DNA of 64,000 nucleotides. It comes from Arthrobacter gallicola. GTDB lineage: Bacteria > Actinomycetota > Actinomycetes > Actinomycetales > Micrococcaceae. Location of the stretch: assembly GCF_014836775.1 (NCBI RefSeq), contig NZ_JACSQD010000001.1, positions 110,255 through 174,254 of the forward strand, read 5' to 3'. Below the pieces are notes generated by a model. That model ran no database searches, was not told the origin of the DNA, and worked only from the letters and a program-made list of their open reading frames with translations. The first letter of the stretch is position 1. Every line of letters starts with the position of its first letter. The translations under genes and the position numbers were made by a program. Positions 9,055 to 35,113 of this stretch are shown here, piece by piece.

Positions 9055-12000
9055 ATGAGTTCTTCTCCTTACCTCCGTTATCCCGATCTCCACGGCGACC
9101 GCGTTGCGTTTGTGGCCGAGGATGACGTCTGGGTTGCTCCGCTTTCCGGCGGCCGGGCCTGGCGTGTTTCCTCCCTGCAGCTGCCCGCCCGGAACCCGAA
9201 GTTTTCCCCTGACGGGTCCCGGATTGCCTGGACGGTTGTGCAGGGCGGTGCCCCTGAAGTGGTCACCGCGGACACCGAGGGAGGGGATTTCCGGCAGCTG
9301 ACGTTCTGGGGCAACCAGAACACCCGGGTGCGCGGCTTCAGCGCCGCCGGCAGGGTCATTGCCACCAGCCCCTTCGAATTTGAGGATTTCCGGCTGCGCT
9401 GGGCTTATGAGGTGCCGCTGGACGGTTCCGCGCCCGTGCGCCTGCCCTACGGGCCGCTCGACACGTTCGCCGAGGGTCCGGCGCTGGGAGACGAACGTCC
9501 CGTGGTCATCGGTTCGGTTCTCAGCCGGGAGCCGGCCCGCTGGAAGCGTTACCGCGGCGGAACAGCCGGAAAGCTCTGGATCGACGCCGACGGTAACGGC
9601 GAGTTCATCCGGCTGATGCCGGAGCTGGACGGCAACCTGGCCTATCCGATGTGGGTGCAGGGCCGGATCGCCTTTTTCTCCGACCATGAAGGCTACGGCA
9701 ACATTTACTCGGTGACGCCCCAGGGCACCGGGCTGCGGCGCCACACCGACTTCCAGGACTTCTACGTGCGGCATCCGTCCAGCGACGGGACCCGCATCGT
9801 CTTCGAATCCGCCGGGCAGCTGTGGCTGCTGGAAACCCTGGACTCTGAGCCCGTACGGCTGGACATCCGCCTGGGCTCTGCGGGGACGGGGCGCCGGCCG
9901 CGCCCGCTGAATGCAGCCCGAAGCCTGAGCGCAGCGATGCCCGCCGCGGATGGCACGGCCAGCGTTGTGGAAAGCCACGGAACCCTCCACTGGCTGGCCC
10001 ATAAGGACGGTCCTTCCCGCGTCATCGAGGCCACGTCCGGAGTGCGGGCCCGCCTGGGCCGTCCGCTGTCCGGCGGGCGCGCTGTCTTCGTCGCTGATCC
10101 GGGCAACGAAGAAGCCCTGTTCATCAAAGATGTCTTCGCTTCCCTGCCTGCCGGCAGCCCGGCTCCCGCACCGGCCGCACCTGAGGCACCGGCGGCGGCG
10201 GAACTGGAGCTGCCCAAACCGGTGTCCGCTGCTGGACGGGCGCACGGCGCAGCGGAGGCCGCGGCCGCCGGCACGGACGCCTCCGTCCGGACCGGGAAGG
10301 ACACGGACACCGGTCCGGCCAGCGGCGCGTCAGAGGCCGTTCTGGCCTCGCAGGACACCGCGATGGAGACCGGCACCTTCCGGATCCCCTTCGACACACC
10401 CACCCGCACAGCGGAACTGCTTCCGAGCCCGGACGGGAAGCTGGTGGCCGTGGCCACGGAAAAGGGGCAGGTCTACCTGCTGGATGTCGACGCACGGGAG
10501 CTCCAACTTATTGCGGACGAGGGGCACGGCGCTGTCGAGGAGCTTGCGTTCAGCCCTGACTCACGCTGGCTTGCCTGGGCGGAACCGGTGGTCGGCGAGG
10601 GCGCCCGCTCACGGATCCGGCTGCGCGAAACGTCCGGTTCCGCTCCTGAAACCCGGGACGTGACTGACGGGCGGTTCCATGACCACAGTCCGTCCTTCAC
10701 TCCTGATGGCCGCTTCCTGGCTTTCCTCTCCGAGCGCAGCTTCGACCCGGTCTACGACACCCATGGTTTCGATCTTGGGTTCCCTACCTCCACCAAGCCG
10801 TTTATGGTGGCGCTGGCTGCGGCGACTCCGTCTCCCTTCGGGCCCGCTGCTCACGTGGTGGAGGAGCCGAAACCGGAAGGAACGGTTGCATCAGATGATC
10901 CCGAAAGCTCCGGAACCGCATCGCCCAAGGAAGTCCGCGTCGACGTGGACCGTTTGTCCGAGCGGCTCATTGCAGTGCCGGTTCCGCAGGGACGCTACTC
11001 CAAACTGCGGGCGGCAGACGGCGCCCTGCTGTGGCTTGCCGAGGATGTCTACGGTGTAACCGGAGACGGCCGGGCACACTCCGCAGACCGCGACCCGGGC
11101 AAGCGGCTGGAACGCTTCGACCTGGGGAAGAAGGACGTGTCCGTCCTGGTGCCGGCGCTGGGGGACTATGAACTCAGCGGGGACGGCGGCACCGTGGTGC
11201 TGCAGCACGAGCACCGGCTGCGTGCGGTTCCCGCCGGCGCCCGCGCAGACGAAGACTCCGCCGAGAGCACCGACATCGACCTGGCCCGTATCCGGGTCCT
11301 GCTGGAACCGGTAAAAGTCTGGGGACAGGCCTTCGACGAGGCATGGCGGCTGCAGCGGGACTTCTTCTGGACCCCTGACATGGGTGGACTGGACTGGGAC
11401 GCAGTGCATGCACGCTACCGGCCGCTCGTGGAGAACCTCGGCTCCCATGACGACCTGGTGGACCTGCTGTGGGAACTGCACGGGGAACTGGGCACCTCCC
11501 ATGCCTACGTCACCCCGGCACCGGTCGCCGAACCAGGCGCCGGCGCACAGGGATTCCTGGGCGCCGACCTGCGGCCGGGCCCCGGAGGGTGGGAAGTGGT
11601 GCGGATCCTGGACCCGGAGTCATCCGATCCGCAGGCTATTTCCCCGCTCAGCGCCCCGGGAGCGGACGTCGGCCCGGGGGACATCATCTCCGCTGTGGAC
11701 GGTCTGCCGGTACCGGCAGACAAGGGCCCGGCAGCCCTCCTGATCGGTGCGGCAGGGCGGGTAGTGGAACTGAGTGTTGTCCGGCCCGAGGAAGGCGCAG
11801 CTCCCAGGCAGCGCCGTATCGCTGTCATTCCGCTGCGCAGCGAAGAACGTCTGCGTTATCAGAACTGGGTCAACGGGAACCGCAGGGCGGTCCGCAGCGC
11901 CTCGGAGGGAAGGTTCGGCTACCTTCATATTCCGGATATGGTCGCCAGCGGGTGGGCCCAGCTGCACCGCGACCTGGACAGCGAAGCTGCGAAGGACGCA

Positions 12001-13209: not shown

Positions 13210-13557
13210 TTACCACATGGTCGCCACGGCGATGTTCACCACGGCCAGGATGCCGACGCCGTTGGCCAGGGTGCGCGACACGGGCTCATCCTTCTTGTAC
13301 TTGCGCTGGCCGATGAAGGCCAGGACCGCAACCACCAGGGTGATCAGCAGCTTGACGCCGACCTTGATCTGGTTGACGTCCCCGTCACCCATCTCGTTCA
13401 GCCCAACCAGCAGGATGCCGGTAACCAGCTGCAGCAGTGCGGCGTGGAACTGGCCGGGCAAAACGGTCGGGTTCTTGATCCGTGCGATCCAGAGACCGAC
13501 AATCATCGCCGCGCCAAGAATGTGCAGGAAAACAAGGAAGCTGTGAAGGAAATCCAT
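13210..13557 (-). CDS. small four-helix membrane protein, unknown function
   Basis: 115 residues with four predicted membrane helices (about 4-24, 35-55, 65-84 and 96-114) and short charged loops, including KYKKDEP before the last helix. A His sits in helix 1 (FLHILG) and another before helix 2 (QFHAAL), as in some haem-binding small membrane proteins, but no family could be assigned. It is monocistronic. The ATG has no Shine-Dalgarno; TAAGAT ends exactly six bases upstream, a leaderless arrangement. About 60 bp upstream lies a perfect palindrome, TTTTCTAC-N5-GTAGAAAA, the same motif found three times in front of cydA. It may therefore be under the BlaI-type repressor encoded at 28.5 kb and have a role linked to respiration; that is inference. 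Confidence 0.75.
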   Translation of the reverse strand: MDFLHSFLVFLHILGAAMIVGLWIARIKNPTVLPGQFHAALLQLVTGILLVGLNEMGDGDVNQIKVGVKLLITLVVAVLAFIGQRKYKKDEPVSRTLANGVGILAVVNIAVATMW

Positions 13558-13607
13558 GCTTCGATCTTACCGACACTATGTCAGCGACACGCAATCCGCG
13601 GGATAAC

Positions 13608-13628
13608 TTTTCTACAACAGGTAGAAAA
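13608..13628 (-). promoter_or_regulatory. BlaI-type operator candidate (TTCTAC-N5-GTAGAA)
   Basis: TTTTCTAC and GTAGAAAA form perfect 8-bp arms around a 5-base centre; one more base pair (C/G) extends it to 13607-13629. It matches the three sites between blaI and cydA. It is centred about 61 bp upstream of the small membrane protein start and just downstream of the sucB terminator, so the membrane protein is the only likely target. Confidence 0.65.
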
Positions 13629-13653
13629 GGGGGGGGTCTGCCGGTGCTTAACG

Positions 13654-13694
13654 ACGACGGCGGGCGGCCCCGTGAGGGAACCGCCCGCCGTCGT
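13654..13694 (-). terminator. hairpin terminator after sucB
   Basis: ACGACGGCGGGCGG and its complement form a 14-bp stem with a 13-nt loop, 9 bp after the sucB stop. Confidence 0.85.
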
Positions 13695-28469: not shown

Positions 28470-28841
28470 CTAGGCGCCTTCCAGGAGCTTGCGCAGAGTC
28501 TGGGCTTCGGTTGCGGACACGGAGCCGACGAACCGGGCCAGGACGGCCTCGCGGTCGTTGGCTGAGCCCAGGACCTCATGCATCAGCTCAGCGGTGTGCT
28601 CCGCGCGGGACGTCACAGCGCGGTAGCGGTGCGGACGGATGTCGCGTTCACGCGCCACCAGCCCTTTTTTCTCGAGCCGGGACAGCACGGTCAGCACGGT
28701 GGTGACGGCAAGGCCCTTCGCCTCGGTGCGTCCGGCGTCATTCTGCGCCAGCTGTTCCCTCAGCTCATTGGCGGTGGCCGCTTCGGGGGACTCCCACAGC
28801 AGGTCCATCATCGCCCGTTCAAGCTCTCCGAGAGTCGCCAT
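28470..28841 (-). CDS. BlaI/MecI/CopY family transcriptional repressor
   Basis: 123 residues. A winged helix (about 1-78) with MATLGELERAMMDLLWESP and the recognition region TTVLTVLSRLEKKGLVARER is followed by a helical dimerisation tail (about 80-123). In this family the M56 partner ends repression by proteolysis. AAGGAA precedes the ATG. Divergent from cydA: three TTCTAC-N5-GTAGAA-type palindromes lie in the shared 228-bp region, one of which overlaps the predicted cydA -10 and a candidate -35 of this gene (TAGAGA, 17 bp, TATTGT). So it likely represses both cyd and itself. M. tuberculosis BlaI is reported to control ATP synthase genes as well as blaC, a precedent for a bioenergetic role. 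Confidence 0.92.
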   Translation of the reverse strand: MATLGELERAMMDLLWESPEAATANELREQLAQNDAGRTEAKGLAVTTVLTVLSRLEKKGLVARERDIRPHRYRAVTSRAEHTAELMHEVLGSANDREAVLARFVGSVSATEAQTLRKLLEGA

Positions 28842-28942: not shown

Positions 28943-28971
28943 TTAACAATACCGGCTTTTAGGACTAGTCT
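28943..28971 (+). promoter_or_regulatory. predicted cydA promoter
   Basis: TTAACA, a 17-bp spacer, then TAGTCT: a good -35/-10 pair for the housekeeping sigma factor. Transcription would start near 28978, inside the first BlaI-type palindrome, leaving a 90-nt leader that contains the other two palindromes. Confidence 0.65.
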
Positions 28972-28985
28972 CTACGTCTTGTAGA
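28971..28985. promoter_or_regulatory. BlaI-type operator, site 1
   Basis: TCTAC-GTCTT-GTAGA. It begins on the last base of the cydA -10 and covers the predicted start site, an ideal repressor position. Confidence 0.7.
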
Positions 28986-29002
28986 AATAAGTCTCCAAAG
29001 TG

Positions 29003-29019
29003 TTCTACGATCTGTAGAA
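29003..29019. promoter_or_regulatory. BlaI-type operator, site 2
   Basis: TTCTAC-GATCT-GTAGAA, perfect 6-bp arms, centred 33 bp downstream of site 1. Confidence 0.7.
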
Positions 29020-29026
29020 GAACCTT

Positions 29027-29043
29027 TTCTACTCCTTGTAGAA
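29027..29043. promoter_or_regulatory. BlaI-type operator, site 3
   Basis: TTCTAC-TCCTT-GTAGAA, perfect 6-bp arms, centred 24 bp downstream of site 2 and 35 bp before the cydA start codon. Confidence 0.7.
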
Positions 29044-29069: not shown

Positions 29070-30671
29070 GTGGAAGCACTGGAGATTGCCCGCTGGCAAT
29101 TCGGCATCACAACCGTCTATCACTTCCTGATGGTTCCACTGACCATCGGGCTCGGGCTGGTTGTAGCCTCGCTGCAGACCGCCTGGGTACGCACCGGCAA
29201 GGAAGAGTACCTCCGCCTTACCAAGTTCTGGGGGAAGCTCTTCCTCATCAACTTCATCATGGGTGTAGCCACCGGACTGGTGCAGGAATTCCAGTTCGGC
29301 ATGGCCTGGAGTGAGTACAGCCGGTTCGTCGGCGACGTCTTCGGCGCCCCGCTGGCGCTGGAGTCCCTGCTCGCCTTCTTCACCGAGTCCGTATTCCTGG
29401 GACTCTGGATCTTCGGCTGGCAAAGGCTGCCGAAAAAACTGCACCTGGCCACGATCTGGCTGGCCACCGGCGCTTCGGCCCTGTCCGCCTACTTCATCCT
29501 CGCTGCCAACTCCTGGATGCAGCACCCGGTAGGTGTTGAACTGGTCGACGGCCGTGCCGTCATGACGGACATCTGGGCTGTCCTCACGAACAACACACTG
29601 CTGGTTGCCTTCCCCCACACCATTACCGGCGCCTTCGCCGTCGCCGGCGGCTTCCTGCTGGGAATCTCCTGGTACCACCTGTGGAAGCGGCGCCGCGACG
29701 GAATCGACACGGTCGATGAGAAAGGCCGCGTCGTGGTGGGCGAAAACGCCGCCATTGGACGCGACAAGACCGACTACAACGTCTGGATCAAGGCACTGCG
29801 TGTCGGCGCCGCCGTCGCCGTCGTTGCCTTTGCCGGCACAGCGATCACCGGCGACCTGCAGGCCAAACTGATGTTCGAACAGCAGCCCATGAAGATGGCG
29901 GCAGCGGAAGCTGCCTGCCACAACGGCACCTCCTTCTCCGTCCTGTCCGTCGGCGATGTCGGCGCGCAGAACTGCGAGGATGTCAAGACCCTGATCGAGG
30001 TCCCCGGCCTGCTTTCCTTCCTAGCCAACGGCGACTTTGAGACCGAGGTCGACGGCGTCAACACCCTCATTCCGGAGTACCAGGAAAAGTACGGCACCCA
30101 CCTGCCGGACGATCCGATGTACGGGGAGCAGGCGGGCGCCGAAATCAACTATCTCCCCGTGATGTCCGTGACGTACTGGGGCTTCCGGATCATGATCGGC
30201 TTCGGCGCTATCGCTGCTGCCGCCGCCGCCGTCGCCCTCTGGGTCACCCGCAAGGGCACGGTTCCGCAGTCCAAGTGGCTGATGCGCCTGGCCGTGTTCG
30301 GCATCCTGGCTCCGTTCGGCGCCAACAGCGCCGGCTGGATCTTCACCGAAATGGGCCGCCAGCCGTTCGTCGTTGTGCCCAACCCCAGCTTCACGGGTAT
30401 CGACAATGTGTTTATGTTCACCGCCGCGGCAGTCTCGCCGGGAGTGAGCCGAGCCGAGCTGCTGTTTTCCGTCATCTCCTTCACGGTGGTCTACCTGGCG
30501 CTGCTGGTCGTGGAGGTGAGACTGCTCTTCAAATACGTGCGGGGCGGAGTTCCCTCAGCCATGCCTGAGCTGGTCCACGCCGGCGGGTCCGGTGACGGTC
30601 CGGATTCGGAGGATACTCCGGACAAACCAGGCGGACGGAAGTCCGACGACGTCCTTGATTTCGCCTACTAG
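29070..30671 (+). CDS. cydA: cytochrome bd quinol oxidase subunit I
   Basis: 533 residues, polytopic. Holds the three haems of the bd oxidase, which reduces O2 with quinol at high affinity. His18 matches the b595 ligand (E. coli His19), His183 in AFPHTITG matches the b558 ligand His186, Glu98 and Glu106 match the conserved Glu99/Glu107 pair, and a TEMGRQP segment carries the methionine ligand region. The Q-loop is short, as in actinobacterial forms. The GTG start has GAAGG about 11 bases upstream. First gene of the cydA-cydB-cydDC operon; the leader has three BlaI-type sites. Confidence 0.97.
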   Translation: MEALEIARWQFGITTVYHFLMVPLTIGLGLVVASLQTAWVRTGKEEYLRLTKFWGKLFLINFIMGVATGLVQEFQFGMAWSEYSRFVGDVFGAPLALESLLAFFTESVFLGLWIFGWQRLPKKLHLATIWLATGASALSAYFILAANSWMQHPVGVELVDGRAVMTDIWAVLTNNTLLVAFPHTITGAFAVAGGFLLGISWYHLWKRRRDGIDTVDEKGRVVVGENAAIGRDKTDYNVWIKALRVGAAVAVVAFAGTAITGDLQAKLMFEQQPMKMAAAEAACHNGTSFSVLSVGDVGAQNCEDVKTLIEVPGLLSFLANGDFETEVDGVNTLIPEYQEKYGTHLPDDPMYGEQAGAEINYLPVMSVTYWGFRIMIGFGAIAAAAAAVALWVTRKGTVPQSKWLMRLAVFGILAPFGANSAGWIFTEMGRQPFVVVPNPSFTGIDNVFMFTAAAVSPGVSRAELLFSVISFTVVYLALLVVEVRLLFKYVRGGVPSAMPELVHAGGSGDGPDSEDTPDKPGGRKSDDVLDFAY

Positions 30672-30689: not shown

Positions 30690-31706
30690 ATGACGCTTCC
30701 AACAATCTGGTTCATCGTTATCGCCTTCCTGTGGGTCGGCTACCTCTTCCTGGAAGGCTTCGACCTGGGCGTGGGCATGCTCATGAAGCTCTTTGCCCGC
30801 AATGAACGCGACCGCCGCGTGCTGCTGAACACCATCGGCCCCGTCTGGGACGGAAACGAGGTGTGGCTGATTACCGCCGGTGCCATGACGTTCGCGGCTT
30901 TCCCCTTCTGGTACGCAGCCCTGTTCTCGGCTCTCTACGTGCCGCTGGTACTGGTGCTGCTGGGGTTGATTTTCCGCGCCGTGTCCATCGAATACCGCGG
31001 CAAGCACGATTCAGACCGCTGGCGGAGCCGCTGGGACTGGGCCATGTCGCTGGGTTCGTTTGTCAGTGCATTCGGTGTCGGCGCCGCGCTGGCGCTCACC
31101 TCCACCGGCCTGCCGCTGAATGCCAACGGGGACCGCGTGGGTGGAGCCTTTGCCTGGCTGACCCCGTGGGCTGTTGTTGGCGGGCTCGCAGTGGTGGGCT
31201 TCAGCCTGATCCATGCCTGCGCCTTCCTCATGCTCAAGACCGACGGCGAAATCCGCGCCCGCGCCCGGCGTGCCCTGGTCCGCTGGCTTCCGCTGGGCAT
31301 CCTGCCGCTGGCTGCCTGGGCCGTCGGCGTGCAGGTCCTGAACGGGGACGCTTTCTCGCTGGTCCCGCTGATTGTCGCTGTTGTTGCCGTGGTGATTGCC
31401 TGGCGTATGGCCCACCTGGGCAAGGAAGGCCTGGCCTTCACGTTCCTGGGCCTGTTCCTGCTGGCCGGAGCCGTCTCGATTTTCGCGGCCATGTACCCCG
31501 TGGTGCTGCCGTCCACGCTGGATTCCGCCTGGAACCTGACCGTCGACAACGCCTCATCCAGCCCGTACACGCTGCAGGTCATGACCTGGGTCTCCCTGTT
31601 CGGCCTGCCGATCGTGCTGCTCTACCAGGGCTGGACCTACTGGGTGTTCCGCAAGCGTGTCTCCGCCGAGTCCATACCTGCCGTCCATAAGGTCAACGCT
31701 CAGTGA
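30690..31706 (+). CDS. cydB: cytochrome bd quinol oxidase subunit II
   Basis: 338 residues with about eight or nine membrane helices. The start TIWFIVIAFLWVGYLFLEGFDLGVGML and the GPVWDGNEVWLITAGGA-like block (here GPVWDGNEVWLITAGAMTF) are the family signatures. It completes the bd oxidase with CydA. GGAGA lies seven bases before the ATG, 18 bp after cydA; its TGA overlaps the GTG of the next gene, so CydDC synthesis is coupled. Confidence 0.97.
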   Translation: MTLPTIWFIVIAFLWVGYLFLEGFDLGVGMLMKLFARNERDRRVLLNTIGPVWDGNEVWLITAGAMTFAAFPFWYAALFSALYVPLVLVLLGLIFRAVSIEYRGKHDSDRWRSRWDWAMSLGSFVSAFGVGAALALTSTGLPLNANGDRVGGAFAWLTPWAVVGGLAVVGFSLIHACAFLMLKTDGEIRARARRALVRWLPLGILPLAAWAVGVQVLNGDAFSLVPLIVAVVAVVIAWRMAHLGKEGLAFTFLGLFLLAGAVSIFAAMYPVVLPSTLDSAWNLTVDNASSSPYTLQVMTWVSLFGLPIVLLYQGWTYWVFRKRVSAESIPAVHKVNAQ

Positions 31707-34700
31707 AACCCGTCCTTCCGGTCAGCGCCACCAGCCGCCGGGCCCTTTACCTGCTGGGCCTGCTCGCGGCTGTGAAGGCAGTGGGGCTGGTCCTGCTGGC
31801 CACCGGAATTGCCGCCGGCATAGCAGGGCTGGCCGGCGGCGGACCGGACTGGGGCTACGTCGCAGCAACCGGGGTAACCGGTGCGCTGCTGCGTTCCCTG
31901 GCGATGTGGGCCCAGGAAACCGTGGCTCAGCGGGCCGCCGCCGGAGTCAAGGATGAGCTGCGCAGCCAGCTCACCAACCGGGTGCTGGAAGACGGCGGTT
32001 CGGTTCCCGGAATGGGCAGTGGTGCGCTCAGCGTCCTTGTGACCCGGGGCCTGGACGGGCTGGACAACTATTACGCCAAGTACCTGCCCGCGCTCGTCAC
32101 CTGCGCCGTCGTGCCGCTGGTGGTGGGTGCCCGCATCCTGGCTGCCGACTGGATCAGCGCCGTCGTCATTGTGCTCACGGTTCCGCTGGTTCCGGTGTTT
32201 ATGGTGCTGATCGGCCTGCACACCGGAGACAAAACCGCTAAGGCAATCGACGCGCTGAACCGGCTTTCGGACAACATGCTGGAACTGGCCAAAGGCCTTC
32301 CGGTCCTGGTGGGCCTGGGCCGCGCCAAGGCGCAGACCCGGGCGCTGCGCGACGTCGCCGAGCGCTACCGCACCACCACACTCGAGACCCTGCGGGTGGC
32401 GTTCCTGTCCTCCCTGGCACTGGAACTGATTGCGACGATCTCCGTAGCCGTAGTGGCAGTTTTCATCGGCGTCCGTCTGGTTCATGGCGACATGTCCCTG
32501 GAAATGGGCCTGCTGGCACTGATCCTGGCACCGGAGTGCTACCAGCCGCTGCGCGATCTGGGCACCGCACACCACGCCAGTGAAGACGGGCTGGAAGCGC
32601 TGAAGCGGACCAACACCGTCCTGGACGCCCCCGCCAGCAGGCCGCTGACGCCCGCTGCCGCCGTCACCGCAAAGGCGGCCGCACCCGCGGTGAGCCTCCA
32701 CGGATTGACTGTCCGCTACCCGGGGCGTTCCGAACCGGTGATCAACGGGCTGGACATCACCGTTCCCCAAGGCAGCATCGCGGCTCTGACCGGCCCCAGC
32801 GGGAGCGGAAAAACCACCGTTCTGGAAATCCTGGCCGGCCTGCGCCGCAGCGGGTCCGGAACCGAAATTTCAGGAGAAGCAGAGGGAATCGACCGCAGTT
32901 CGATTGCCTGGATACCGCAGCACCCCGTGCTGGTTGAAGACACGGTTGAGGCGGAGATTGGCCTGTACTCCGGGCTGGCAGATCCCCGGGAGCGGCGCCG
33001 GGCTGCGCGCCGGGCGCTGGCTGAAATCGGCGCGGCACACCTGCTCCAGGCACAGTCGGGTGACCTGAGCCCCGGTGAGCAGCGCCGGGTCGCCGTCGCC
33101 AGGGCCATAGCCCGGGTTCAGAACTGCCCCGGAGTCCGGGTCCTGCTGGCCGACGAGCCCACCGCCCATCTGGACGCACGCAGCGCGGCCGCGGTGCGCG
33201 CAGCCCTGTCCCGGCTGCGTGGAGAATGCACAGTCCTGCTCGTGGCCCACGATCCGGAAACGGCGGCCATTGCCGACGTCGTTATCCCTGTTTCGGGTGG
33301 AGCGGATCCTGGGGGAGTCCTCCGGCACTCCGTTGGTGGGCCGGCCGCAGCCTCCATCCGTCAGGAGGAGGCCGACAGCCTGGCCACCGCCGCTGCCGCC
33401 GATACCAGCGGCGTAAAACGCCAGCCGCTCTGGAAAAATCTGCTCATCCTGCGTCCCTGGAGCCGCCGGTTCCTGCAGGCGCTGGCGTACGGCACCGGTG
33501 CCACTGTTTTCGCTGTCGCGCTGAGCGCCCTGTCCGGCTGGCTGATTGTCAGGGCCTCCGAGCAGCCGCCCATCCTGTACCTGCTGACAGCGATTGTTGG
33601 TGTCCGGTTCTTCGGAATCGGACGCGCCGTGCTGCGGTACCGTGAACGCCTGCACCTGCACGACGCCGTGTTCCGGGCGACCAATACCCTGCGCATCAGG
33701 CTCTGGAACGGTCTGTTGAACCGCCCCGAGGGGTGGCGCAGACTGTCCCGCGGCGGGGGAGCCCTGGAACGGCTGGTGGGCGACGTCGATGAACTGCGGG
33801 ACATTGCGCCCCGGGTGGTCTTCGCGCCGCTGACAGGTTTGATCACCGCGGTGGCTGCCTGCACCGCCACCTGGATCCTGATCCCCGAGGCCATCTGGGT
33901 TCAGATCGGTCTCTGCCTGGTGGGTCTGGTGGGCGCACCGCTGCTGGCCCACTGGGCCGATTCCTCCGCCCGTGCCCGGACAGTATCCCTGCAGGCCCGC
34001 GCCATGGCCGGCATGACCAAGCTACTGACGGCCGCCCCGGACCTGGAAGCGAACAGCAGCTCAGGCCCGGTGCTTGACCGGCAGCGGAGCTACGACTTGG
34101 CTGCTGCCCACGCCGTGCGCCGCAGTGCCTGGGCCCAGGGACTCGCCAATGCCGTCACGGCCCTGGCCTGCGCCGGAGCCGCCCTGTGGGTCATGTTCCT
34201 TGCCCAGGGTGCACCTGCGACGGTCGCCGCGGTGATTGTGTTGATGCAGCTGGCCCTGCTTGAGTGCTTTGCCTCCGTCAACGGTTCAATCCAGCAACTC
34301 GGTGCCTGGCGGATCCTCGGGGATAAGGTACTTCCCGATCTTGGCTCCAGCGACGTGGACCCGGGAACGGTCCCGGACGCCGGAGAAACAGCGCAGGGTT
34401 CCCGGGAGCCGGATAACGGACTGCGGACCGTGCCCCGGAAGCTTGGCACCCTTGAGCTGCACGGCATCCACTACCGGTATCCGGGTGCTTCCACGGATGT
34501 GCTGGATGGTGTGGACCTGTCCCTGCGGCCCGGCGAATGGCTTGCCGTCACCGGCGAATCGGGCAGCGGAAAATCGACGCTGCTCGGTGTGCTGCTGGGC
34601 TTCCTGACCCCCCAGCGCGGCACCTTCCTCATCGACGGCAAACCGGCGTCGGAATTCCCGCGGGAGGCCCGGGGTATGGCCTGGTGCCCGCAGGAGGCCC

Positions 34701-35113
34701 ACCTGTTCGATTCAACGCTGCGGGGGAACCTCCTGCTGGCCCGTGACCGCGCAAACGCACCTTCCACAACGGAAATGCTGGATGCCCTGGAAGCCGTTGG
34801 ACTCGGACAGCTGATCAAGGAGCTTCAGGACGGGCTGGATACCCGAATCGGCAATGGAGGTCATTTCCTTTCCGGTGGCCAGCGCCAGCGCCTCGCCGTC
34901 GCGCGGGCACTGCTGACGGAAGCGGACGTTGTGCTGCTGGATGAACCCACTGCCCATCTGGACCCTGCGGCGGGAGCACAGCTGATGGCGGACCTGCGGC
35001 GCGGCCTGGGCGGCAAGTCGGTGGTGGTGGTGACGCACAACCCTGCTGACGCGGCGTGGTGCAGCCGGCACCTCGAACTGGGTTCAGCGCAGCGGAGTCT
35101 TGCCGTACGCTAG
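31703..35113 (+). CDS. cydDC: fused CydD-CydC ABC exporter
   Basis: 1136 residues in one chain: membrane domain, ATPase, membrane domain, ATPase. Needed for assembly of cytochrome bd; in E. coli CydDC is a heterodimer that exports reduced thiols or handles haem. First ATPase: Walker A GPSGSGKTT at about 364-372, a degenerate signature LSPGEQ at about 455, Walker B LLADEPTAHLD. Second ATPase: GESGSGKST at about 951, canonical LSGGQRQR at about 1055, LLDEPTAHLDP. The degenerate first signature fits an asymmetric exporter with one working site. Streptomyces also has a fused CydCD, so the fusion is a known lineage trait. A linker of about 50 residues (545-580) joins the halves. Confidence 0.95.
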   Translation: MKPVLPVSATSRRALYLLGLLAAVKAVGLVLLATGIAAGIAGLAGGGPDWGYVAATGVTGALLRSLAMWAQETVAQRAAAGVKDELRSQLTNRVLEDGGSVPGMGSGALSVLVTRGLDGLDNYYAKYLPALVTCAVVPLVVGARILAADWISAVVIVLTVPLVPVFMVLIGLHTGDKTAKAIDALNRLSDNMLELAKGLPVLVGLGRAKAQTRALRDVAERYRTTTLETLRVAFLSSLALELIATISVAVVAVFIGVRLVHGDMSLEMGLLALILAPECYQPLRDLGTAHHASEDGLEALKRTNTVLDAPASRPLTPAAAVTAKAAAPAVSLHGLTVRYPGRSEPVINGLDITVPQGSIAALTGPSGSGKTTVLEILAGLRRSGSGTEISGEAEGIDRSSIAWIPQHPVLVEDTVEAEIGLYSGLADPRERRRAARRALAEIGAAHLLQAQSGDLSPGEQRRVAVARAIARVQNCPGVRVLLADEPTAHLDARSAAAVRAALSRLRGECTVLLVAHDPETAAIADVVIPVSGGADPGGVLRHSVGGPAAASIRQEEADSLATAAAADTSGVKRQPLWKNLLILRPWSRRFLQALAYGTGATVFAVALSALSGWLIVRASEQPPILYLLTAIVGVRFFGIGRAVLRYRERLHLHDAVFRATNTLRIRLWNGLLNRPEGWRRLSRGGGALERLVGDVDELRDIAPRVVFAPLTGLITAVAACTATWILIPEAIWVQIGLCLVGLVGAPLLAHWADSSARARTVSLQARAMAGMTKLLTAAPDLEANSSSGPVLDRQRSYDLAAAHAVRRSAWAQGLANAVTALACAGAALWVMFLAQGAPATVAAVIVLMQLALLECFASVNGSIQQLGAWRILGDKVLPDLGSSDVDPGTVPDAGETAQGSREPDNGLRTVPRKLGTLELHGIHYRYPGASTDVLDGVDLSLRPGEWLAVTGESGSGKSTLLGVLLGFLTPQRGTFLIDGKPASEFPREARGMAWCPQEAHLFDSTLRGNLLLARDRANAPSTTEMLDALEAVGLGQLIKELQDGLDTRIGNGGHFLSGGQRQRLAVARALLTEADVVLLDEPTAHLDPAAGAQLMADLRRGLGGKSVVVVTHNPADAAWCSRHLELGSAQRSLAVR

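Follow-up and report, generated by a model that had tools for sequence, protein, structure and literature searches.

The P115 locus and its palindrome

The window, by which we mean the whole stretch of 64,000 nt of Arthrobacter gallicola DNA that was analysed (GCF_014836775.1, contig NZ_JACSQD010000001.1, positions 110,255-174,254 of the forward strand), holds a gene for a small membrane protein of no named family, called P115 here, and the genes of cytochrome bd, with a gene of the blaI type facing away from them (Table 1). Upstream of the P115 gene lies a palindrome whose core 17-mer, TTCTAC-AACAG-GTAGAA (13610-13626, forward strand), ends 52 bp from the ATG of the gene on the reverse strand. 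A reading made earlier from the sequence alone had taken this palindrome for a fourth copy of the cyd operator, about 60 bp in front of a monocistronic gene. The palindrome was present as described, with arms of 9 bp, and so were the three cyd sites, two of them exact and one with a single mismatch; in all four sites the 5-base centre ends with a pyrimidine and T when read in the direction of the gene. Its position upstream of the 115-residue gene was thus correct and only the distance overstated, whereas the label of a fourth cyd operator, apt in that the element is shared with cyd, proved too narrow because sites of this kind front about ten promoters in the genome. When up to two mismatches were allowed, the window gave five matches (one of them, at 11116, with two mismatches) against 0.41 expected, a number reached in none of 100 shuffles.

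Table 1. Positions in the window of the genes, putative regulatory elements and hairpins discussed in the text
Feature	Position	Strand	Basis or remark
Likely intrinsic terminator, 3' of the P115 gene	13135..13175	-	hairpin, 16-bp stem then U-run; z -6.6
P115 gene, 115-residue four-helix membrane protein	13210..13557	-	no named family
-10-like TAAGAT, 6 nt before the ATG	13564..13569	-	putative, read by eye
Second element, CTGACA-N3-TGTCG-N-TA, beside the -10 of the P115 gene	13568..13584	-	also in some close relatives
Putative BlaI-type operator, 9-bp arms, CTTTTCTAC-N5-GTAGAAAAG	13607..13629	.	sequence and conservation before the same gene
Likely terminator of the upstream 2-oxoacid dehydrogenase E2 gene, between that gene and the operator	13650..13694 (limits approximate)	-	hairpin; z -6.3
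BlaR-like membrane metalloprotease, 326 aa	27468..28448	-	HEKAH (HExxH); Peptidase_M48 9e-10
blaI, putative regulator	28470..28841	-	PF03965, 77 bits vs curated cut-off 22.6
cyd/blaI intergenic operator 1 (1 mismatch)	28970..28986	+	
cyd operator 2 (exact)	29003..29019	+	
cyd operator 3 (exact)	29027..29043	+	
cydA	29070..30671	+	domain scan
cydB	30690..31706	+	domain scan
Fused ABC transporter, 1136 residues, two ABC_tran stretches	31703..35113	+	cydDC name suggested by its place after cydAB

With a hairpin on either side, the P115 gene is probably transcribed alone, which makes the monocistronic claim plausible, although a simple terminator scan of the locus listed one forward-strand site and neither hairpin. 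A scan for sigma-70 promoters upstream of the gene found nothing. Read by eye, a TAnnnT hexamer often stands about 6 nt before the ATG in the printed sequences of relatives as well, and it is possible that the P115 transcript is leaderless. The spacing of the palindrome varies among the 67 named loci that have one: its end is 17-22 bp from the ATG in 46 loci, 51-64 bp in 18, 31 bp in two and 7 bp in one, and in all 14 of the closest Arthrobacter loci (L056-L069) it ends 51-63 bp before the start. For a leaderless transcript, a site some 20 bp before the ATG would lie over the -35 region, which fits occlusion by a repressor; simple occlusion would not seem to explain both main placements, and at 51-64 bp regulation could be of either sign. 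The second element beside the -10, kept in several close relatives (for example L056, L061, L093 and L122), is perhaps the site of a second regulator. It was rejected as a regulon motif, having a single exact match in the genome, at the P115 locus, and one more at one mismatch.

Frequency of the palindrome and the genes behind it

Throughout the 3,648,547 bases (3.65 Mb, 14 contigs) of the genome, TTCTAC-N5-GTAGAA occurs exactly six times, compared with 0.03 expected under a base-composition model. Another nine sites carry one mismatch (1.5 expected), giving 15 in all against five for the reversed pattern used as a control. At up to two mismatches there was no genome-wide enrichment, with 67 matches against 113 for the reversed control, so that only sites with no mismatch or one are meaningful, and the two-mismatch matches were discarded as noise. 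This count had been set beforehand as the check on whether the motif occurs at random frequency; it stands far above chance, and the proposal came through unrefuted.

Thirteen of the 15 sites precede genes, at about ten promoters, and nearly all of these genes belong to aerobic energy metabolism or haem; the other two fall inside coding frames. Target names come from Pfam and NCBIfam scans where this is stated and were otherwise read by eye. The exact sites front the P115 gene, cydABDC (two sites), a gene for a 129-residue membrane-type protein, hemQ (PF06778; the operator lies between hemY and hemQ, L048:5160-5176, in an apparent hem operon) and a flavohaemoglobin-type gene with globin and reductase domains. 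The sites with one mismatch comprise the third cyd site and those before ctaE-qcrC (131 bp from ctaE itself, and nearer, at 13 bp, to a divergent trpD-like gene), the atp operon (recognised through the NCBIfam match of atpB, with an intervening atpI-like frame seen by eye), a resA-like gene of thioredoxin fold (named resA from Pfam and a sub-threshold NCBIfam match, with a ccdA-like gene seen by eye after it), sucC, an ABC transporter followed by ctaA, and a gene for a 106-residue protein.

Besides P115, two of the proteins behind these sites are small and of membrane type. The 129-residue protein (G000:C7, L047:4644-5033, reverse strand) matched no Pfam family at E 0.001, and a homologue of about 50% identity in genome G137 (L154) has the operator upstream too; we name it a putative second unstudied member of the regulon. 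The gene for the 106-residue protein stands beside purF, with its site 7 bp upstream (L053:4786-4802); it has no obvious respiratory link, and the site is perhaps a chance resemblance.

The pattern TWCTAC-N5-GTAGWA was also searched in five other genomes of the family, where it gave 40 sites (7, 8, 7, 8 and 10) against 12 for the control. As many as 29 of the 40 front homologues of targets in the window's genome: cyd (12 sites, in all five genomes), the stretch between hemY and the hemH side (four sites in four genomes; L152, L156, L160 and L169), flavohaemoglobin (four sites in three genomes), ABC-ctaA (three), resA (three, in L153 before the preceding gene), the P115 gene (two) and the gene for the 129-residue protein (one). 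The remaining 11 front other genes, some of them, as read by eye, for lipoamide dehydrogenase, lactate dehydrogenase, FMN-binding and universal-stress proteins. None of the exact-pattern sites annotated in these five relatives stands before ctaE, atp or sucC.

Conservation of the site upstream of P115 homologues

Relatives of P115 are encoded in 124 of 149 genomes of the family and in 186 of 296 genomes of the class, the window's genome being counted in both. Within the family, the site was sought as TTCTAC with at most one mismatch and was present upstream in 22 of the 30 loci fetched among the matches to P115 (the window's locus included), compared with one of 1500 shuffled upstream regions. 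It was likewise present in 67 of 80 named loci, against none of 1600 permuted-palindrome tests; these loci come from Arthrobacter, Pseudarthrobacter, Paenarthrobacter, Glutamicibacter and others but do not count as independent, since many are of one genus, and L126, whose start is unreliable, was counted among those lacking the site. Four loci of Rothia and Kocuria (L070, L072, L073 and L098) have no such site.

Beyond the family, the looser TWCTAC was used, with controls made equally loose. The 46 upstream regions comprised 26 of 27 fetched loci (L185, at a contig edge, was dropped) and 20 loci hand-picked across families; 15 of them have the site (two in family f10, six in f23, two in f24, three in f26 and two in f4), compared with one of 1380 control tests. 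Among the 31 others, 30 stand at four to six mismatches, and such a two-humped distribution is what one would expect if the site is either kept or lost.

A probable BlaI-type regulator beside cydA

BlaI is best known as a repressor of beta-lactam resistance. The blaI gene of the window is divergent from cydA, with the three cyd sites in between, and encodes the single PF03965 protein found in the genome. Among solved structures, its product finds a match in chain 2g9w (E 5e-18); the entry is labelled a conserved hypothetical protein, and we take it to be BlaI of M. tuberculosis. In the neighbouring BlaR-like protease, a Pfam search at E 0.001 found the peptidase domain only and no beta-lactam sensor domain.

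The distribution of BlaI follows that of the site. Among 75 genomes, the window's own excluded, an orthologue of at least 44% identity was found in all 36 that have the site and in 13 of the 39 that do not (Fisher 8e-11), and outside the family the corresponding figures are 15 of 15 and 7 of 31 (Fisher 3e-7), both P values being weakened because the test ignores shared descent. Six of the eight family genomes that lack the site still have a BlaI orthologue, as do two f10/g46 genomes. Nine of the genomes searched for both blaI and cydA have both; the two genes are close and divergent in five of them (G203, G166, G241, G342 and G368, of other families) and are not divergent neighbours in the other four (G178, G353, G177 and G195).

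From the sites, their conservation, the genes that they front and the co-occurrence with BlaI, we consider it probable, with odds of roughly four in five, that the BlaI-family repressor encoded next to cydA uses the palindrome as an operator, and that P115 has long belonged to a regulon of respiration and haem under BlaI control. In such a scheme, which predicts BlaI binding as well as a sign and a signal for the regulation, a BlaI dimer would bind TWCTAC-N5-GTAGWA and block the promoter, until a respiratory or envelope signal activates the neighbouring BlaR-like membrane protease. The activated protease would lead to inactivation of BlaI and so to expression of the P115 gene, together with cytochrome bd, hemQ, flavohaemoglobin, ABC-ctaA, resA, ctaE-qcrC, ATP synthase and sucC.

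The P115 protein

An AlphaFold2 model built with 51 sequences from the window and the named loci shows four helices (mean pLDDT 95.8, pTM 0.87). Residues H12, G47 and K69 are invariant across 50 homologues, and K65, N108, G15, A17, L104, A112 and W115 nearly so, whereas H5 is variable and P115 of the window has Asn at position 99, where His is common among the family's other genera. The sequence-only reading had pointed out two His at the start of the membrane part and suggested a haem- or quinone-related factor; a pair of His as haem ligands was not supported, with H12 alone invariant; nor does P115 have the two conserved His on facing helices that mark a bis-His haem-b protein.

Searches gave the family no firm kinship. 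For P115 of the window, neither Pfam at E 0.1 nor NCBIfam at E 0.001 gave a family match, and a search of PDB sequences returned a sole row at E 2.2; among the 50 homologues, the best NCBIfam match was a hypothetical-protein model (E 8.7e-5, its cut-off not shown). Foldseek with the model found nothing at E 0.001, its first rows being the designed di-haem bundle 7ah0 (E 0.13) and 9h4c (E 0.30), and the rows shown were generic four-helix bundles only, among which the absence of a family proves nothing. In a structure comparison, P115 and 7ah0 gave Z 11.0 (rmsd 2.0 over 96 residues), a value within the Z 10.4-11.8 of unrelated bundles. Sub-threshold matches to SirB (PF04247), DUF1516 (PF07457) and Tmemb_14 (PF03647) came from a few homologues, Tmemb_14 in five of the 50 with a best E of 0.005; P115 of the window itself has no profile match to these three or to CopD or DUF2269. 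The best homologue scores were 23 bits for L200 against the DUF1516 cut-off of 30.5 and 16.2 for L208 against the SirB cut-off of 30.9, these being the only two families whose match cut-offs were shown. A kinship with SirB by way of E. coli YchQ was rejected, hhalign of A3 against YchQ giving a probability of 0.6%. Across 60 genomes of the phylum SirB had one match, below its cut-off, and DUF1516 had none in the genome behind L071.

The presence of P115 was compared with that of cytochrome bd and hemQ in 40 hand-picked genomes with the P115 gene and in 20 of the 110 class genomes that lack it. A cydA gene occurs in 30 of the 40 and in 11 of the 20 (one of the 11 sub-threshold), and a gene of the hemQ type in 32 of the 40 and in 16 of the 20. 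Eight of the ten P115-gene genomes with no cydA are at least 93% complete, and two are incomplete (72% and 81%). There being no clear association with cydA or hemQ, P115 is tied to neither.

Alternative explanations

Two other readings of the palindrome have to be set against the BlaI operator. It might be a chance resemblance, given that the motif is simple and shows no enrichment at two mismatches, but the excess of exact sites in the genome and the conservation before P115 homologues leave this with next to no credibility. A weightier possibility is that the sites belong to another transcription factor controlling respiration and that blaI is merely a neighbour of cydA: the assignment to BlaI is built on conservation and co-occurrence, and BlaI at 44% identity or more is carried by 13 of the 39 genomes lacking the site. 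Against it stand the place of blaI, divergent from cydA around three sites and the sole PF03965 gene found, its orthologues in every one of the 36 genomes that have the site, the fit of 6-bp repeats spaced by 5 nt to a BlaI motif given in PMC8457756, and the overlap with the M. tuberculosis BlaI targets reported in PMC5473688. On balance we regard a different factor as unlikely and keep to BlaI.

As to the protein, the sequence-only reading had placed P115 in one regulon with cytochrome bd and suggested an accessory role. The shared, conserved operator and the co-occurrence with BlaI bear out the former, whereas a part dedicated to cytochrome bd, as subunit or assembly factor, appears very unlikely: the operator common to the P115 gene and cydABDC and the somewhat higher share of cydA among genomes with the gene would favour it, but a quarter of those genomes (10 of 40) show no cydA, many other promoters have the same operator, and no cydA-type match lies beside the P115 gene in 12 context loci. 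A haem- or porphyrin-handling membrane protein with H12 as axial ligand can be entertained as a minority view, in keeping with the invariant H12 and K69, the many haem genes of the regulon, the di-haem bundle as best Foldseek row and the sub-threshold Tmemb_14 matches; yet E 0.13 is not significant for a four-helix bundle, a second invariant His is absent and hemQ occurs at the same rate with and without the gene. Since the same site fronts its gene in many relatives as well as genes of respiration and haem, P115 probably works in aerobic respiration. As a best guess, it serves there as a general membrane factor, acting through H12 and K69 in redox, quinone or haem handling, and not as a cytochrome bd subunit.

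Relation to known BlaI regulons

Binding of M. tuberculosis BlaI to the cytochrome bd promoter and to that of ATP synthase is stated in PMC5473688, which cites Sala et al. 2009 and also describes a mycobacterial BlaR with no beta-lactam domain. For Rv1303, the first gene of the atp operon, repression and EMSA binding are reported (PMC12565901), and PMC5874750 and PMC7924339 agree that the atp operon is a BlaI target. Going by these reports, the Arthrobacter system resembles that of M. tuberculosis (BlaI Rv1846c, BlaR Rv1845c) in its BlaI-family repressor, in a BlaR devoid of a beta-lactam sensor and in operator-like sites before cyd and atp (the latter with one mismatch); unlike in M. tuberculosis, blaI is divergent from cydA. 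Further likely Arthrobacter targets, some of which may be shared, are hemQ, flavohaemoglobin, ABC-ctaA, ctaE-qcrC, resA, sucC and the P115 gene.

The form of the operator has a precedent in Clostridium thermocellum, where DAP-seq of BlaI_0696, according to PMC8457756, gave 6-bp inverted repeats 5 nt apart, and EMSA confirmed that a single repeat is bound. The half-site there is GTCTAT, however, and the regulon described is small, with sensory genes and one hypothetical gene. A literature search by title and the start of the abstract, with preprints and most subscription papers outside its reach, found no BlaI regulon of respiration outside mycobacteria. This kind of regulon is already known, while the literature searched showed neither the extension of it described here nor a P115 family among its conserved targets. 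These results lend support to a general role of BlaI in regulating aerobic respiration and the supply of haem, in the Arthrobacter family and outside it. They place two unstudied small membrane proteins, P115 and the 129-residue protein, in a testable respiratory setting, and provide a clean operator, TWCTAC-N5-GTAGWA, that can be used to predict such regulons.

A more speculative reading, and one that we think doubtful, is that P115 genes belong to the ancestral core of BlaI targets across the Actinomycetes and that their product is a factor of respiratory state in the membrane, either a quinone or haem handler or a partner that reports the state of the respiratory chain to the sensorless BlaR. 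If true, this would explain how a BlaR with no beta-lactam domain senses anything.

The surroundings of the P115 gene vary across the class, with pcrA, ribH, nuoN or amine oxidase genes as neighbours (mostly named by eye). One homologue directly follows an apparent nuoN (L232), and others follow ribH-like genes (L228 and L233), these names again being read by eye. A homologue 64% identical to that of the window was also found on a contig labelled Sporosarcina beigongshangi (L071), whose label or assembly may be wrong.
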